Below are positions 18,242 through 45,949 of a stretch of 64,000 nucleotides of DNA, in pieces (within the stretch, counting starts at the first letter, position 1; each line of letters begins with the position of its first letter). The stretch lies in assembly GCF_000427785.1 (NCBI RefSeq), contig NZ_ATYR01000005.1, positions 62,001 through 126,000 on the forward strand. Reading direction: 5' to 3'. Made by a program: the position numbers and the translations under genes. The stretch comes from Massilia alkalitolerans DSM 17462 (lineage in GTDB: Bacteria; Pseudomonadota; Gammaproteobacteria; Burkholderiales; Burkholderiaceae_D). Below the pieces are notes generated by a model. That model worked only from the letters and a program-made list of their open reading frames with translations. It was not told the DNA's origin and ran no database searches.

Positions 18242-20197
18242 CTACTCGCCCCGTGCGCGGGCTTCGATGCGCTCCCAGCGTTCGAGGGCGTCGAGCAGCA
18301 GCTCGTCGATCTCGGCGTGGCGCTCGCTCAGGCGGCGCGCGTCGCCGGGATTCTGCTTGTAGAAGTCGGGCGAATTCAGCTGGGCCGTGATCGCCGACTG
18401 CTCATCTTCAAGAGTCGCGATCAGCTGGGGAAGTTCCTCCAGTTCGCGCTGTTCCTTGTAGCTCAACTTTACCTTTTTACCAGACCCGCTCTGTGCGGTA
18501 GATGACATTTCACCAGCTTTGGCTGCCGGGTCGACCGGGGTCGCCGAGGGCGCGGCGCCCTTGGCAAGAGTGGCGGCGGCCTTCGTTGCAGACGCGGCAT
18601 CGTTGGCGCGCGCGCGTTCCCAGTCGGTATAGCCACCGACGTATTCGCGCCACAGTCCATTCCCTTCAGCAACGATCACCTGGGTCACGACGTTGTCGAG
18701 GAAGGTACGGTCGTGGCTGACCAGGAACACGGTGCCCGTGTATTCCTCGAGCAGTTCCTCGAGCAGCTCGAGGGTTTCGATGTCGAGGTCGTTGGTCGGC
18801 TCGTCCAGCACCAGGCAGTTGGCCGGCTTGGCGAACAGGCGCGCCAGCAGCAGGCGGTTGCGCTCGCCGCCCGAGAGCGACTTCACCGGCGAGCGGGCAC
18901 GTTCCGGTGCGAACAGGAAGTCGCTGAGATAGGTCATCACGTGCTTCTTCTGGCCGTTGATCTCGACCCAGTCGCTGCCCGGCGAGATGGTGTCGGCCAG
19001 GCTCGCCTCGTCGTTGAGCTGGGCGCGCATCTGGTCGAAATAGGCGACGTTCAGCTTGGTCCCCAGCTTGGCCGAGCCGCTGTCGGCGGTCTCGTCGCCC
19101 AGGATGATCTTCAGCAGCGTGGTCTTGCCGGCGCCGTTGGGCCCGATCAGGCCCACCTTGTCGCCGCGCAGGATCGTGCCGGTGAAGTTGCTGACGATCA
19201 CTTTCTCGCCGTACGACTTGGAGATGTTTTCCAGCTCGGCAACGATCTTGCCCGATCGCTCGCCGGCGCCAACATCGAGACGGACCGTGCCCTGCTGCTC
19301 GCGGCGCGCGGCGCGCTGCAGGCGCAGCGCTTCCAGGCGGCGCACCCGGCCTTCGTCACGGGTACGGCGGGCCTGCACGCCCTTGCGGATCCAGACTTCT
19401 TCCTGGGCCAGGAACTTGTCGAACTTGGCGTTCTCGACTTCCTCGTTGGCAAGCAGCTCGCGCTTGCGTTCCTGGTAGGTGGAAAAGTTGCCCGGGAACG
19501 AGAGCAGGCGGCCACGGTCGAGCTCGATGATGCGGGTGGCGACGTTGTCGAGGAAGCTGCGGTCGTGGGTAATGAACAGCACCGAGCCGCGGTACTCACG
19601 CAGCAGGCCCTCCAGCCACTTGATCGAGGTGAAGTCGAGGTGGTTGGTCGGCTCGTCCAGCAGCAGCACGTCGGGTGCGGAGACCAGCGCCACGGCCAGG
19701 GCCACGCGCTTCTGCATGCCGCCCGACAGCGTACCCATCTTCGCTTCACGGTTCAGGCCCAGGCGGTCGAGGGTGGTGTCGACCTTGTGCGCCAGATTCC
19801 AGCCGTCGACGGCGTCGAGCTTGACCTGGATCTCGTGCATGCGCTCCATCAGGGCATCGTCGTTGTCGCCGCCGAACTGCCCGGTGAGCGACTCGTACTC
19901 GGCCAGCATGGCCTGCTGGTCGCCCATGCCGGCGGCCACCGCATCGAACACGCTCGCGTCCGGATCGAAGACCGGTTCCTGCTCGACGTAGGCGATCTTG
20001 ACGCCCTGCTGCATGACCAGCAGGCCGTCGTCGAGCCTGGAGCGGCCGGAGATGATCTTCAGCAGCGAGGATTTGCCGGTGCCGTTGCGGCCGATCAGGC
20101 CGACGCGCTCGCCGGTCTCCAGGGAAAAGTCAGCGTGGTCGAGCAGCGCGACGTGGCCGAAGGCCAGTTGCGCGGAAGTGAGGGAAATGACAGCCAT
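18242..20197 (-). CDS. uup: ABC-F family ATPase Uup
   Basis: A 651-residue soluble protein with two ABC ATPase domains. Domain 1 has GRNGTGKSS and LSGGMQKRVALA; domain 2 has GPNGAGKTT and LSGGERNRLLLA. Between them is the ABC-F linker (about residues 240-310) with the RRTRDEGRVRRLEALR segment typical of Uup. The C-terminal coiled-coil (about 570-650, KLSYKEQRELEELPQLIATL) binds DNA or ribosome in characterised Uup proteins. There are no membrane segments, so it is not a transporter. It is housekeeping and unrelated to the neighbouring Eps genes apart from orientation. Confidence 0.92.
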   Translation of the reverse strand: MAVISLTSAQLAFGHVALLDHADFSLETGERVGLIGRNGTGKSSLLKIISGRSRLDDGLLVMQQGVKIAYVEQEPVFDPDASVFDAVAAGMGDQQAMLAEYESLTGQFGGDNDDALMERMHEIQVKLDAVDGWNLAHKVDTTLDRLGLNREAKMGTLSGGMQKRVALAVALVSAPDVLLLDEPTNHLDFTSIKWLEGLLREYRGSVLFITHDRSFLDNVATRIIELDRGRLLSFPGNFSTYQERKRELLANEEVENAKFDKFLAQEEVWIRKGVQARRTRDEGRVRRLEALRLQRAARREQQGTVRLDVGAGERSGKIVAELENISKSYGEKVIVSNFTGTILRGDKVGLIGPNGAGKTTLLKIILGDETADSGSAKLGTKLNVAYFDQMRAQLNDEASLADTISPGSDWVEINGQKKHVMTYLSDFLFAPERARSPVKSLSGGERNRLLLARLFAKPANCLVLDEPTNDLDIETLELLEELLEEYTGTVFLVSHDRTFLDNVVTQVIVAEGNGLWREYVGGYTDWERARANDAASATKAAATLAKGAAPSATPVDPAAKAGEMSSTAQSGSGKKVKLSYKEQRELEELPQLIATLEDEQSAITAQLNSPDFYKQNPGDARRLSERHAEIDELLLDALERWERIEARARGE

Positions 20198-40555: not shown

Positions 40556-41564
40556 GACATTTCTCCACGATTTGTTCGGCCAGCGCGGGGTCGATCCGCG
40601 CGGTCACGGGCACGACCCACAAGCGCGGATCGTCCTTCAGGTTATCAAGTTGCCGACATTTTACTGCATCCTTCTCCGTGATCAGGATGACATCGGCGTC
40701 GAGCCCGTCGAAAGGTCGGTCGAGGAAGTCGTGGTGGTCGGGCAGCGGCAGTTCCTGGAAGTCCAGGCCGGCGCCGCGCAGCATGGCGAAGAAGCGGCCC
40801 GGATTGCCGATGCCGGCAGCGGCCACGATGCGCCTGCCCTTCAGGCGCGCGAGCGGCAGGCAATCTTCCGGCCGCATCAGGGGCTCGGCGAAGTCGCCCG
40901 CCAGCTGCATCTGGAAAGGCTGGCCGCCGACGGCGCGCGCCAGCCTCGGGGTGATCTCGGGCGCGTTCACCACCGTGAAATCGCGGCGCCGCGAAGGCGG
41001 CTCGCGCAGCGGGCCGGCCGGCAGCAGCCAGCCATTGCCGACGCCGCGGCCGTCGAACAGGACGATCTCGACGTCGCGCGCCAGCGCGTAGTGCTGCAGG
41101 CCATCGTCGGTGATCAGGACGTCCACCTCCGGGTGGCTGGCGAGCAGCGCCCTGCCCGCCTGGGCACGCTGGCGTCCCACCACGACCGGACAGCCGGCGC
41201 GCGCCGCGATCAGGAGCGGCTCGTCGCCCACTTCACGGGGATCGGATTGCGGCGTCACCTCGCGCGGCACTTCGGCCGCACCACCGTGGCCGCGCGAGAT
41301 CACGCCAGGACGCAGGCCGGCGCCGCGCAGGCTGTCCGCCAGCCAGATCGTCAGTGGCGTCTTGCCGGTCCCGCCGATGAAGATGTTGCCGACCACGATG
41401 ACCGGCACCGGCAGGCGCTCGCTCTTCTTCAGGCCAAGCCGATACAGCAGCGTGCGCACCCCGGCGAGAACGCGGAACAGCAGCGCGAGCGGCAGCAAGG
41501 CCAGCGCCAGCGGGCCGCGGCGCAGCCAGGCACGGGTGAGGGTCGATTCTAGGTTGGAAGCCAT
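40536..41564 (-). CDS. lpxK: Tetraacyldisaccharide 4'-kinase
   Basis: A 342-residue inner-membrane lipid A kinase. The N-terminal hydrophobic segment ([16 protein letters not shown]) and the P-loop [14 protein letters not shown] are typical, followed by SRGHGG, the catalytic region [14 protein letters not shown] and PAGPLREPP. It phosphorylates the 4' position of the lipid A disaccharide. It lies between exbD (31 bp upstream) and trm112 (overlapping), in the conserved betaproteobacterial operon. Confidence 0.95.
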
Positions 41565-41594
41565 GGAGGAGCGGACGCCGGGGCGTCCGCGTTG

Positions 41595-42038
41595 TTATTT
41601 CCTGGTGCCGGTCTGGGCAGCGAAGGTCAGCTTATCGTAGCCGGCCACGCGCGCCGCTTCCAGCACGTTGATGACCATCTGGTGCATCGCGAACTGGTCG
41701 GCGTTGACGATCACCACCGGGTCGACCGCTGGTTGACCGCTCGGGGCATTGCGGGCCGCAGTTTTTAAGTCTTCTGCGAGGCCGGCCACGCTGTGGAAGG
41801 ACACCGGCACATTGTTCACCGTGTAGTTGCCCTTGGCGTCGATGGTGACGTTGATCTCGAAGGGACGCTCCTGCACCTTCTCGGCGTCGGCCGTGGGCAG
41901 CGTGATCTGCAGCTCGGTGAACTTGCTGTAGGTGGTCGAGACCATCAGGAAGATGAGGACGACCAGCAGCACGTCGATGAACGGAATCAGGTTGATCTCC
42001 GGTTCCTCGCGCTGGCGGCCGCGGCGGAAGTTCATCAT
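41595..42038 (-). CDS. exbD: ExbD/TolR family energy-transducing protein
   Basis: A 147-residue protein with one N-terminal transmembrane helix (NLIPFIDVLLVVLIFLMVST), including the functionally important Asp in FIDVLL, and a periplasmic domain ending AGYDKLTFAAQTGTRK. It works with ExbB to couple proton flux to TonB (or, in the TolR version, to TolA). The neighbourhood with lpxK is typical of the ExbB/ExbD pair in this group. The start overlaps the exbB stop by 4 bp. Confidence 0.92.
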   Translation of the reverse strand: MMNFRRGRQREEPEINLIPFIDVLLVVLIFLMVSTTYSKFTELQITLPTADAEKVQERPFEINVTIDAKGNYTVNNVPVSFHSVAGLAEDLKTAARNAPSGQPAVDPVVIVNADQFAMHQMVINVLEAARVAGYDKLTFAAQTGTRK

Positions 42039-42640
42039 TTGCGGGTCCCGTGCACGACGTCGACGAATTTCACGGCTTGCAGTTCCATCTCGACGATGAA
42101 GCTGTCGACCGAGGAGCGGAAGTGGCGGTAGAACACCAGGGCCGGCATGGCGATCGCCAGGCCGAAGCCGGTGTTGTACAGCGCCACCGAGATGCCGTGC
42201 GCCAGCTGGGCCGGGTTGTTGCCGGTCGGGCTTTGCGCGCCGAAGATCTCGATCATGCCGACCACCGTGCCGAACAGGCCCAGCAGCGGAGCCAGCGAGG
42301 CGATGGTGCCGAGGGTGGTGAGGAAGCGTTCCAGGCCGTGGGCGACACCGCGGCCGGCTTCCTCGATGGATTCCTTCATGACGTCGCGCGGCGCGTCGAC
42401 GTTGCGCAGCGCGGCGGCCAGCACGGTGCCGAGCGGCGAATTGTGTTCGAGCTTGTCGACCACGTCGGGCGTGACCTTGCCGGCGCGGTAGACGCGGATC
42501 ACTTCATCCAGCAATGCCTTCGGGAGGATCTTCTCGCGGCGCAGGTAGATCAGGCGTTCCACGATCAGGGCGACGGCAATGATCGAGGCAATCAGCAAGA
42601 ACCAGATGGGCCAGCCTGCAGCTTGAAAAATGGCGAGCAA
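42035..42640 (-). CDS. exbB: MotA/TolQ/ExbB family proton channel protein
   Basis: A 201-residue inner-membrane protein with three transmembrane helices: about 8-28 (AGWPIWFLLIASIIAVALIV), then two in the second half (TTLGTIASLAPLLGLFGTVVGM and GFGLAIAMPALVFYRH). It forms the channel with ExbD. The start is TTG at 42640, preceded by GGAG; no ATG fits. It heads the operon exbB-exbD-lpxK-trm112-kdsB, just below the 1.27-kb non-coding tract that could hold its promoter. Confidence 0.92.
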   Translation of the reverse strand: MLAIFQAAGWPIWFLLIASIIAVALIVERLIYLRREKILPKALLDEVIRVYRAGKVTPDVVDKLEHNSPLGTVLAAALRNVDAPRDVMKESIEEAGRGVAHGLERFLTTLGTIASLAPLLGLFGTVVGMIEIFGAQSPTGNNPAQLAHGISVALYNTGFGLAIAMPALVFYRHFRSSVDSFIVEMELQAVKFVDVVHGTRK

Positions 42641-43911
42641 AAGAAACTCCTAGTGGGAAAGAAAATCAGTTCAGCAATGTAACAAGTTGCCAGCAGTGCG
42701 GCAAGTGTGGTTCTGCACAGCTTCTGTGGATAAAAATGTGTGCAAGGCCCTCTTCTGGATCAAAGAGCATTGATTTCAAAGGACATTCTGCGCCTGCGCA
42801 AGAAAACGGCACGTGTCAGATGAGCATGCTTCCAGCTCAGACGTCTTGTTGGGGATGATGTTGATCTAGCTCAACCGTTTGCACTTACGAACAAATTCTG
42901 TGGACAAAATTGTGCGCAATGGCGCCTGACTGCAGCTAAGTCATTGTTTCGTTTCGAGAAATTTCCGGAGCGCAAAAAATAGGCAGTGTCGTAGCTTGTC
43001 CTCTAGCGCCCGGTTCTGTGCGGTTCCTCACATTTTTTGTGGACAAAAGTGTGAGCAAGGGCCGATTTTCGATACTAAGTGCTTGATATAAAACAAGAAA
43101 CCATTAATGCATAAAATTTCATCACTCAGCAGTAATGCGATGGATTGTGTGCAACTCTGCCCTTTCATGCATGACTTATTCTGTGCTGCAGACTCAGCGG
43201 CTAAGAAAATTCACATCTGCACATTTTTTGTGGATAAGGATGTGATGAATGATGTATGCGGCAAGCTAAGCCATTGATTCATAAGGGATCGGATGGGACT
43301 GCCTGCGAAACATGCAAATGCTGGCAAATGCCGGAAAAGCCGTGTTCCAAGCCGCTGGGCGGGCTGATCCAGCGCTTCAGCGCGCGCAAACCGCCCCCGC
43401 CGACCACGGCAAGCGCTCTTGTGCACACTTTGTGTGGACAAAATTGTGTGCAAGGCGCCCTTCGCTAGCTTAAGTCATTGATCTAAAACAATAAACTTTC
43501 CTAGCGTCATTTTTAGGCAGGCGCATCGTGCTCCTGCCCAGTCTTCGGGACTGGGTCGTCGAAGCTAGGATATGCACATATTTTGTGGACAACAATGTGT
43601 CCAAGCCAGGCATAGGGCTGCTAAGTGCTTGACGCATAAGGGAGGCGAGCTCCACGCTCCATTCTTGAGCAGGCGCCTGTCTTATGGATGAGTTGCCCAC
43701 AGATTTTGTGGATAAAGTCGCGTTAAAACCTGAAGACACCTCTGCAAGCCATTGATTTCAAAGACTTTCAATAGAATGCATTGAAAACTGGCAACAACGC
43801 TTCATGCTGGACAAACATCCGCACCGGTGCGCACGACTGCCGCCAAGCCTTGTCGTTTTCCCCAAGATATGACATAAGCATCAGCTTTACCAAAGCAGCC
43901 AAGCAGCCTCC
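42641..43911. other. 1.27-kb non-coding tract between exbB and xseA
   Basis: An unusually long gap with lower GC than its neighbours and no credible gene; the frames at 43211-43468 and 43470-43739 overlap the repeats and lack coding character. It is occupied largely by seven copies of a DnaA-box-like composite repeat listed separately, and should also carry promoters for the divergent exbB and xseA genes. Confidence 0.85.
42713..43760 (+). repeat. Seven-copy composite repeat with DnaA-box-like cores
   Basis: The core TGTGGATAA or TGTGGACAA (reverse complement of TTATCCACA/TTGTCCACA) starts at 42725, 42899, 43038, 43229, 43433, 43584 and 43707, always in this orientation. Twelve bases after each core start lies TGTG or a relative, usually as TGTG-N-GCAAG. 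At 43-44 bases after the core start each copy has a CATTGAT/CTTGAT-like motif, usually as CTAAGTCATTGAT. Flanking arms form inverted repeats that differ between copies: TGCACAC/GTGTGCA (43422/43446), CTCACA/TGTGAG (43027/43050), TCACATC/GATGTGA (43211/43239). Copies are 123-204 bp apart, so this is not a simple tandem repeat or a CRISPR. Confidence 0.85.
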
Positions 43912-45285
43912 ATGGAATATCAAAGCGACGCCGATCCCGCCTACACCGCGCCACCCGTCATGACCGTGACGTCCCTGAACCAGCAGGTCGCCCGCCTGCT
44001 CGAACGGAGTTTTCCACTGGTCTGGATCGGCGGCGAGATCTCGAACTTCACGCGCGCCAGTTCCGGCCACTGGTATTTCACGCTGAAGGACGATGCCGCC
44101 CAGGTGCGCGCCGTGATGTTCCGCAGCCGCGCGCAATACGCCGGATTCAATCCGCGCGAAGGCGACAAGGTCGAGGTGCGCGCCCTGGTCACCCTGTACG
44201 GCGCGCGCGGCGACTACCAGATCAATGTCGAGACCATCCGCCGCGCCGGCGTCGGCCAGCTCTACGAAGCCTTCCTGAGGCTCAAGGAAAAGCTCCAGGC
44301 CCAGGGCCTGTTCGATCAAGAGCGCAAGCGAGCGCTGCCGCTGTTCCCGCGCACCATCGGCATCGTCACCAGCCCCCAGGCCGCGGCCCTGCGCGACGTG
44401 CTCACCGCCCTGCGCCGCCGCGCGCCGCACGTGCGCGTGATCCTCTACCCGGCCCCGGTCCAGGGCCAGTTCGCCGCCGACAAGATTGCCGAAGCGATTC
44501 AAACCGCCTCGCGCCGCCAGGAAGCCGACGTGCTGCTGGTGTGCCGCGGCGGCGGCTCGATCGAAGACCTGTGGAGCTTCAACGAGGAATGCGTGGCGCG
44601 CGCCATCGACGCCTGCCAGGTCCCGGTGATCTCGGGCGTGGGCCACGAGACCGACGTCACCATCGCCGACTTCGCCGCCGACGTGCGCGCCGCCACCCCG
44701 ACCGCCGCCGCCGAGCTGGCGGTCACGCCGCGCGCCGACTGGCTGGCCTCCCTGTCGGGCGACGCCCAGGACCTGCGCCGCGCCATGCGCCGCACGCTGT
44801 CGGAAACCAGCCAGGGCCTGGACAGCTACAGCCGGCGCCTGCTCAGCCCCTCGGCCCAGATCCGCCACCAGCGCGTGAAACTGCTATCGACGGCGGCCGC
44901 CCTGACCCATGCGGTGCGCACCCCGGTCAACCGCCAGAACCTGGTGTTGGCCCAGCTGCAGCAGCGCTGGATGCGCCACCGTCCCGACATGCGCGCAATG
45001 CGCGCGCAATTGCTGGCGGACGGGCGCCACCTGAACACCAGCCTGTGCAACGCCGTCAAACGGCGGCGCGACGCCCTCGATGCCCTGGCGGCGCAGTTGG
45101 AACTGCTGAACCCGCAACGCACGCTCGAGCGCGGCTATGCCATCGTCCGCAACGTCAAGGGCGAAGTGCTGCGCGACCCGGCGCAGGTCAAGGCACGCAA
45201 CAAGCTGAGCGTGCGGCTGGCCGGCGGCACGGCCGACATCGTCGTGTCCAGCGTGCAGGCCGCGCTGGGTGATCCGAATGACTAG
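43912..45285 (+). CDS. xseA: Exodeoxyribonuclease VII large subunit
   Basis: A 457-residue catalytic subunit of exonuclease VII, which degrades single-stranded DNA. The N-terminal OB-fold domain has [20 protein letters not shown] and [18 protein letters not shown]; the central catalytic region has [31 protein letters not shown] and [16 protein letters not shown] long coiled-coil C-terminal part ends in the family motif [11 protein letters not shown] 43912 is the first; the internal ATG at 43960 (MTVTSLNQQ) also fits. The small subunit xseB is not in the window. sodB follows in the same direction. Confidence 0.95.
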
Positions 45286-45300
45286 CCAAGCATGCAACAT

Positions 45301-45330
45301 CGCGCTATCCGGTTTAGAATAGCGCGGTTT
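45301..45330 (+). terminator. Hairpin between xseA and sodB
   Basis: A perfect 8-bp stem CGCGCTAT / ATAGCGCG with a 10-base loop, followed by GTTTT, 16 bp after the xseA stop. The T-run is short, so it may be a weak terminator. The loop also contains TAGAAT, a possible -10 box for sodB. Confidence 0.5.
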
Positions 45331-45370
45331 TGGAACAAAACCCGTCCAACCAACGCACAAGGAATTGAAC

Positions 45371-45949
45371 ATGGAACATACCCTGCCGCCACTGCCGTAC
45401 GCTAAGGATGCCCTGCAGCCGCACATCTCGGCCGAGACCCTGGAATACCACCACGGCAAGCACCACCAGACCTATGTCACCAACCTGAACAACATGATCA
45501 AGGGGACCGAGTACGAAAACATGTCCCTGGAAGAGATCATCCAGAAGTCGACCGGTGGTGTGTTCAACAACTCGGCCCAGGTGTGGAACCACACCTTCTT
45601 CTGGAACTGCATGACCCCGAACGGCGGCGGCGCACCGACCGGCAAGGTCGCTGACGCGATCAACGCCAAGTGGGGCTCGTTCGACAAGTTCAAGGAAGAG
45701 TTCAACAAGTCGGCACTGGGCAACTTCGGCTCGGGCTGGACCTGGCTGGTGCAGAAGGCCGACGGCAGCGTCGACATCGTCAACACCTCAAACGCCGGCA
45801 CCCCGCTGACCACCTCGGACAAGCCGCTGCTGACCGCCGACGTCTGGGAGCACGCCTACTACATCGACTACCGCAATGCGCGCGCCAAGTTCCTGGACGC
45901 GTTCTGGAATGTCGTGAACTGGGACTTCGTGAACCAGAACGCGGCTTAA
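45371..45949 (+). CDS. sodB: Superoxide dismutase [Fe]
   Basis: A 192-residue cytoplasmic superoxide dismutase. The metal ligands are in [11 protein letters not shown] (His27 region), [11 protein letters not shown] (second His) and [11 protein letters not shown] (Asp and His). The [13 protein letters not shown] segment and size are those of the Fe type, though Fe and Mn cannot be separated with certainty by eye. ATG at 45371 has AGGAATTGAAC before it; the TTG two codons earlier is unlikely. A strong terminator follows 21 bp after the stop. Confidence 0.96.

Follow-up and report, generated by a model that had tools for sequence, protein, structure and literature searches.

A tandem array of seven DARS-like modules, probably a DnaA-control site, in the exbB-xseA gap of Massilia alkalitolerans

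A DARS (DnaA-reactivating sequence) promotes the release of ADP from DnaA, which yields ATP-DnaA, and acts preferentially on ADP-DnaA. Its core is defined as three DnaA boxes of which box I is oriented opposite to box II (PMC8682772). DARS2 of Escherichia coli lies in the rppH-mutH region, is intergenic and located between origin and terminus like the array described here, and has the order core-IHF-Fis (PMC4245941, PMC8682772), with additional boxes and two IHF sites. DARS1, between bioD and uvrB, possesses a single core and, as stated in PMC4585315, works independently of proteins such as IHF or Fis; the same source describes datA as intergenic DnaA boxes plus an IHF site. The relative distances from the E. 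coli origin are 0.33 for DARS1, 0.21 for DARS2 and 0.10 for datA. A 3-bp spacing is also found in ordinary double DnaA boxes, as at the E. coli purH, polA and nrdA promoters, and pairs with 2-3-bp spacing are reported from E. coli promoters more generally (PMC11317965). With respect to distribution, according to a 2017 review (PMC5742627), beta- or gamma-species proximal to E. coli have kept the DARS2 spacing; gamma species alone are named in the relevant passages of PMC4245941, and likewise in those of PMC8682772. As the DARS2 spacing has already been extended to beta- or gamma-species in that review, the kind of element as such is known. Neither tandem DARS arrays nor a DARS site between exbB and xseA are described in the literature that was searched.

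The array was found in a stretch of 64,000 nucleotides from Massilia alkalitolerans DSM 17462 (the window; contig NZ_ATYR01000005.1, positions 62,001 to 126,000). An initial annotation had reported seven same-strand copies of TGTGGAYAA in a gene-free tract of 1.27 kb, and these are real: the exact 9-mer starts at 42725, 42899, 43038, 43229, 43433, 43584 and 43707, always on the + strand, and nowhere else in the whole window. Seven occurrences stand against 0.31 expected, none of 100 shuffles reaches seven, and the limits of the tract are exactly the start of exbB (-) and the start of xseA (+). The features are as follows.

42035..42640, - strand: exbB (PF01618), start 42640, flank outside the element
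42641..43911, no strand: exbB-xseA intergenic region with the entire array, 1,271-bp gap
42711..42745, + strand: module 1 core, box I TTCTGCACA (inverted), 5 bp, box II TGTGGATAA, 3 bp, box III TGTGTGCAA
42763..42775, + strand: module 1 IHF-type site, 7/9 fixed positions
42795..42811, + strand: module 1 TGC-N11-GCA palindrome, 6/6
42885..42919, + strand: module 2 core, box I TTACGAACA (weak), box II TGTGGACAA, box III TGTGCGCAA
42937..42949, + strand: module 2 IHF-type site, 8/9
42969..42985, + strand: module 2 TGC-N11-GCA-type palindrome, 5/6; Fis consensus 6/6
43024..43058, + strand: module 3 core, TTCCTCACA, TGTGGACAA, TGTGAGCAA
43076..43088, + strand: module 3 IHF-type site, 9/9
43108..43124, + strand: module 3 palindrome, 5/6
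43215..43249, + strand: module 4 core, ATCTGCACA, TGTGGATAA, TGTGATGAA
43267..43279, + strand: module 4 IHF-type site, 9/9
43300..43316, + strand: module 4 palindrome, 6/6, 1-bp shift
43419..43453, + strand: module 5 core, TTGTGCACA, TGTGGACAA, TGTGTGCAA
43471..43483, + strand: module 5 IHF-type site, 8/9
43503..43519, + strand: module 5 palindrome, 5/6
43570..43604, + strand: module 6 core, ATATGCACA, TGTGGACAA, TGTGTCCAA
43622..43634, + strand: module 6 IHF-type site, 7/9
43655..43671, + strand: module 6 palindrome, 5/6, 1-bp shift
43693..43727, + strand: module 7 core, TTGCCCACA, TGTGGATAA, box III CGCGTTAAA (degenerate)
43745..43757, + strand: module 7 IHF-type site, 9/9
43777..43793, + strand: module 7 palindrome, 6/6
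43912..45285, + strand: xseA, exonuclease VII large subunit (PF02601), start 43912, flank outside the element

The weak boxes in the window are thus box I of module 2 and box III of module 7, a point against a DARS assignment. The smaller motifs named by the initial annotation stand as well: a second TGTG follows 12 bases on exactly in six of the seven copies, with CGCG in the seventh, and the start of the TTGAT-type motif is at an equal distance in all seven (TTGTT in copy 2, TTGAC in copy 6). That annotation did not recognize the left arm as an inverted DnaA box or the downstream motif as an IHF consensus, and it overlooked the TGC-N11-GCA palindrome that follows. A scan of 41500-45400 against Rfam matched nothing at E up to 1. 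The distances from module to module (174/139/191 ... 123 in the window, 42725-43715) are nearly equal in the Massilia-type loci L100, L102 and L109, where the spacer sequence is different.

Aligned over many loci, the module is a rigid unit of about 100 bp: an inverted box I is separated by 5 bp from box II and this by 3 bp from box III, and after some 17 bp there follow an IHF consensus and then the TGC-N11-GCA palindrome. The first alignment drew 227 units from 41 loci, all with an exact 9-mer, and a position matrix of the 35-bp core, built from units with an exact box II, matched a second set of 263 modules at a threshold of >15 bits. With position 1 at the start of the 9-mer, the consensus has TTnYnCACA at -13 to -5 (box I, inverted), TGTGGAYAA at 1 to 9 (box II), TGTGnGCAA at 13 to 21 (box III), YAAnnnnTTGATW at 39 to 51 (IHF-type by sequence match) and, at 71 to 87, TGC-N11-GCA around an A/T-rich middle. 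PMC8682772 and PMC4585315 print YAAnnnnTTGATW, in one strand or the other, as the IHF consensus; its best match lies at the exact offset in 227 of the 263 modules and one base off in 28. Among the modules with an exact-offset IHF site, at least five of the six fixed letters of the palindrome are present at its own offset in 168/226 (one module with unread bases left out) and within one base of it in 207/227. At other offsets the background is 0.9% on average; only offset -10 stands out, with 40%, because the palindrome is mimicked there by the DnaA boxes.

The palindrome is a probable site for a third protein in every module, and the Fis homologue is our proposal for that protein. The Fis consensus GnnYAnnnnnTRnnC is fully fitted (6/6) in 18/131, 10/96 and 9/28 modules, i.e. 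37/255, against a background per position of 0.2% on average and 3.5% at maximum. As this full fit is found in just 37 modules, and in the window in one of seven (module 2), another protein may bind there. We take TGC-N11-GCA to resemble NtrC sites; the DNA-binding domain of NtrC is related to that of Fis.

For a comparison with E. coli, the core matrix from the 227 units was run over fetched stretches of 5 and 4 kb with DARS2 and DARS1, respectively, and over the datA stretch. Its best place in the DARS2 stretch is TTATTCACC-TTTTC-TGTGGATAG-AGT-TGTGAAGAA at 29.9 bits, with a second place at 18.1 bits, and in the DARS1 stretch TTATCCACT-ATTCC-TGTGGATAA-CCA-TGTGTATTA at 22.6 bits; the ChIP-seq table of PMC11317965 lists box sequences consistent with these places being DARS2 and DARS1. 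An exact tail calculation, which takes bases as equal and independent and stands in for a whole-genome rank, gives 2.5e-4 chance places per E. coli genome at the DARS2 score and 0.008 at the DARS1 score. The maximum in the datA stretch, with the module and not the datA layout itself as query, is 10.5 bits, which is at chance level (1.0 place expected per genome).

The array modules have the three-box core with box I opposed to box II and the 5-bp and 3-bp spacing of DARS1 and DARS2, and the layout for which the initial annotation knew no named element is therefore, in its core, that of these two elements. With DARS2 they further share the order of core and IHF site, followed by a Fis-like candidate site, the IHF-consensus site standing by sequence at a fixed place 3' of the core, at a distance unlike that in E. 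coli: the IHF- and Fis-like sites start at 39 and 72, as against 80/96 and 132 in E. coli DARS2, and are thus about 41 and 60 bp nearer the core than the E. coli candidate sites. This difference counts against the DARS reading, and because of it the modules are not filed as DARS2, which also differs in its neighbour genes, in its additional boxes and two IHF sites, and in having one DARS-type core where the Massilia array has seven modules. DARS1 is identical in core geometry and likewise differs in being single. The double boxes of the E. coli promoters share the 3-bp spacing of boxes II and III, a point against the DARS reading, but they do not form tandem modules. Judged by these features, the array modules have the structure expected of DARS.

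The 5-bp spacing of the head-to-head boxes I and II is independent of the matrix. An open-pattern search with TTATCCACA-N(0-20)-TGTGGATAA matched in 156 of 369 class genomes, and the backward control in 2; among the matches listed, a hand count gave 75 distinct head-to-head pairs, 72 of them at 5 bp and three at 17 bp, and each of the latter is a 5+9+3 arrangement with a third box. A core-only model matched at E <= 0.01 in 288/369 class genomes, the E-values being rough and ordinary DnaA-box groups possibly included. The core geometry is thus widespread in the class, and the array elaborates on it.

A datA-like function had been among the options of the initial annotation. In that case about 21 boxes would soak up DnaA, or IHF-bent DNA would promote ATP hydrolysis, and the next start of replication would be delayed. 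Many boxes and IHF sites at one locus, and the multiple copies, fit titration. The chance-level score of the datA stretch speaks against it, as does the fact that the inverted box I is retained in the aligned units and that head-to-head pairs keep one spacing; together with the distribution and position described below, this makes a titration or inactivation site unlikely.

The initial annotation had also noted that the variable arms around the core remain inverted repeats, and had taken this as selection for pairing. The arms are indeed complementary at most positions. However, boxes I and III oppose each other about box II, so that the arms pair where both keep the DnaA consensus, and selection for pairing is not borne out. 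In 97 non-redundant modules the three variable arm pairs are complementary at 0.186, 0.361 and 0.309, compared with 0.219, 0.324 and 0.277 in global shuffles and 0.217, 0.354 and 0.299 in within-locus shuffles; a cruciform or other arm pairing finds no support, since the variable positions covary no more than shuffles in this set. In the redundant set of 255 modules two arm pairs exceed the global shuffles, of which 8 and 4 in 500 are as high, yet stay within the range of the within-locus shuffles (313 and 97 of 500), and two spacer pairs beside box II exceed the within-locus shuffles (0 and 8 of 500), whereas in the non-redundant set the same two spacer pairs lie within the shuffle range (91 and 147 of 500). 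The excess in the redundant set is taken as relatedness, which that set leaves uncontrolled.

Similarity to the whole tract at the DNA level was found in 18/18 same-genus genomes and in 0/12 genomes of other families in the order, which counts against the DARS reading. A strict pattern matched 59 of 116 family genomes, and 40 loci were fetched, 18 from the same-genus DNA search and 22 picked for their match to the pattern. All 40 contain exbB and 37 contain xseA, divergent and with the array between them; the three without xseA end before reaching it. As these loci were chosen through similarity or pattern match, their synteny represents a biased sample. In one locus (L110, genome G014) xseA follows about 2.5 kb past the last copy, perhaps due to an insertion.

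A scan upstream of xseA started instead from the gene. XseA was found in 114/116 family genomes, and dropping a fragment (G130) left 113, in which cores of >20 bits pointing to xseA were scored; four upstream stretches were shorter than 3,000 bases, that of the window had 1,926, and earlier-fetched, longer loci were scanned whole. At least one core is present in 75/113 genomes and 32/44 genera. Conservation beside xseA, which the initial annotation had named as a check on a degenerate dispersed repeat, holds in this sense. Exactly one core was found in 28 genomes, a poor fit to titration, three or more in 45 and five or more in 34; 276 cores face xseA and 3 the opposite direction. No core at >20 bits was found at xseA in the other 38/113 family genomes, and this also counts against the DARS reading.

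Beyond the family, a full-module model (R2) matched at E <= 0.001 in 250/330 genomes of the order, outside the window's family mostly with one to three matches per genome and at most six, within it with five to nine in 10/11 matching genomes and one in the remaining genome (G043). Among 22 further loci (L178-L199), exbB and xseA flank the module in six (L178, L181, L185, L187, L194, L195) and xseA alone in two (L198, L199), and seven of these eight come from four other families (f212, f215, f223, f224). The matches listed include 118 named loci, of which 46 hold both genes, 9 xseA alone, 3 exbB alone and 60 neither, and 8 are without a core above 18 bits. Linkage to exbB and/or xseA among these matches extends to Massilia, Janthinobacterium, Duganella, Pseudoduganella, Rugamonas, Undibacterium, Collimonas and Noviherbaspirillum, and likewise to Cupriavidus lacunae; the largest array listed has nine modules (L272, a Janthinobacterium MAG). 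Names outside the class among the matches listed are Chryseobacterium, Clostridium, Firestonebacteria, Rhodobiaceae, Rhodobacteraceae and Pararhodobacter. In genus g27, five near-identical cores about 246 bp apart (L077:2235-3252) represent a recent tandem duplication of the module.

It is against this distribution that a degenerate dispersed repeat of the mobile or REP kind, functionless here, has to be weighed. Copies do differ, their number varies among genera, and the near-identical units of L077 were duplicated recently. On the other hand, the strong matches to the core model in the M. alkalitolerans genome are the seven array cores only (E 1.5e-8 to 2.3e-4; next 0.012), all at one place, and this place and the orientation are constant across genera and recur in the four other families, with a spacing that stayed fixed though the spacers diverged. 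Synteny and orientation largely refute the repeat, which we regard as very improbable.

The same synteny could mean that DnaA, IHF and Fis control the promoter region of exbB and/or xseA. The array sits between the divergent genes in the fetched loci, selected as these were, nearly all cores face xseA, and double DnaA boxes with similar spacing are known from E. coli promoters (PMC11317965). However, among the matches listed 35 of the 118 named loci hold priA-like genes, a core above 18 bits being present in 31 of these, and still others contain neither exbB nor xseA. Genes of the priA type also occur in 11 further loci, including L040 of the M. alkalitolerans genome, and in 5/29 loci fetched from other genomes by a class-wide search; PriA was confirmed by Pfam in L223, and in L417 the module lies between the genes for uroporphyrinogen decarboxylase and PriA (Pfam). 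The surroundings of priA thus appear, by their sequence, to be a second recurrent DARS-like site. At the priA site of M. alkalitolerans the type II and III boxes are kept and box I is gone.

Also genus g38 has no core at xseA in 4/4 genomes, and in one of them (G055) an array lies elsewhere: four places of 12.7-17.3 bits near a DUF2026 gene (L415:3377-4150), where box II is weak, box III is strong and the IHF site fits at 9/9 positions. The array placed elsewhere in g38 and the priA-linked modules suggest a function that is not tied to exbB or xseA. A switch for these genes, as considered by the initial annotation, retains the position of the array between them and is weakened because like modules occur away from both; moreover, seven rigid modules over 1 kb seem too many for two promoters. 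We consider promoter control improbable, more so than titration.

Two weaker DARS-type cores in M. alkalitolerans (C1:16448-16480 and 18948-18980; E 0.012 and 0.08) flank a gene for a UvrD-type helicase. With this gene, five genes of repair or restart lie next to such cores, the other four being uvrB, mutH, xseA and priA.

DnaA boxes and IHF sites are also typical of replication origins, and a secondary or main origin had been among the initial options. In eight genomes in which a single large contig carries both the array and dnaA, the circular distance between them is 0.38, 0.29, 0.15, 0.31, 0.44, 0.31, 0.32 and 0.33 of the contig, on the assumption that the contig is the whole circle; in M. 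alkalitolerans dnaA is on a different contig, with one DnaA box found upstream of it. The cumulative GC skew, judged within the window only, shows near the array a maximum, where an origin would have a minimum, and appears to track gene direction. As dnaA is far from the array, which thus lies neither beside it nor at a skew minimum, we think that an origin has hardly any likelihood. The range of 0.15-0.44 is similar to the distance of DARS1 and also spans that of DARS2, in favor of the DARS reading, whereas datA lies nearer oriC than the arrays lie to dnaA, a further point against titration.

As to the partner proteins, DnaA is encoded in the M. alkalitolerans genome, homologues of Hda and IHF alpha score above cut-off, and a Fis homologue is 38% identical; these are components of an ATP/ADP cycle of DnaA. 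As Hda is present, ADP-DnaA should form and need recharging, as judged from E. coli. In another genome (G125) the DnaA family has several short, partial hits that are near-identical and scattered, perhaps from an insertion-sequence ATPase.

We therefore favor the DARS-like option of the initial annotation: the locus is probably a chromosomal DnaA-control site of seven tandem DARS-like modules, and the array likely works like a DARS. The basis for this, established at the level of sequence, is the core geometry, the IHF consensus, the palindrome, the rigid spacing, the synteny, the orientation bias and the homologues of DnaA, Hda, IHF alpha and Fis; protein binding, ADP release and an effect of copy number in the array we infer by analogy. 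As in E. coli DARS2, ADP-DnaA would occupy boxes I and II in head-to-head orientation, with box III bound alongside. IHF would bend the DNA about 17 bp downstream of the core and thereby recruit to TGC-N11-GCA a third partner, which is probably the Fis homologue of this bacterium. Put under strain, the DnaA assembly would release ADP, and the freed DnaA would rebind ATP and could again start replication. Seven copies may multiply or grade the output.

More tentatively, and with somewhat less than even confidence, we propose that beta-proteobacterial DARS loci consist of one compact core-IHF-Fis module at two recurrent places, beside priA and between exbB and xseA. The copy at xseA would have grown, in the Oxalobacteraceae-type branch, to arrays of up to nine, whereas the priA copy may decay, as the loss of box I in M. 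alkalitolerans suggests, and DnaA recharging would thus be set by DARS copy number. If true, DARS copy number would be a tunable control of replication timing that is not known from E. coli. The DARS literature, as represented by the sources cited here, rests on E. coli and near relatives, and a module conserved beyond these would test the generality of the ATP/ADP DnaA switch. The natural arrays of one to nine copies would provide a dosage series for how recharging sets replication timing.
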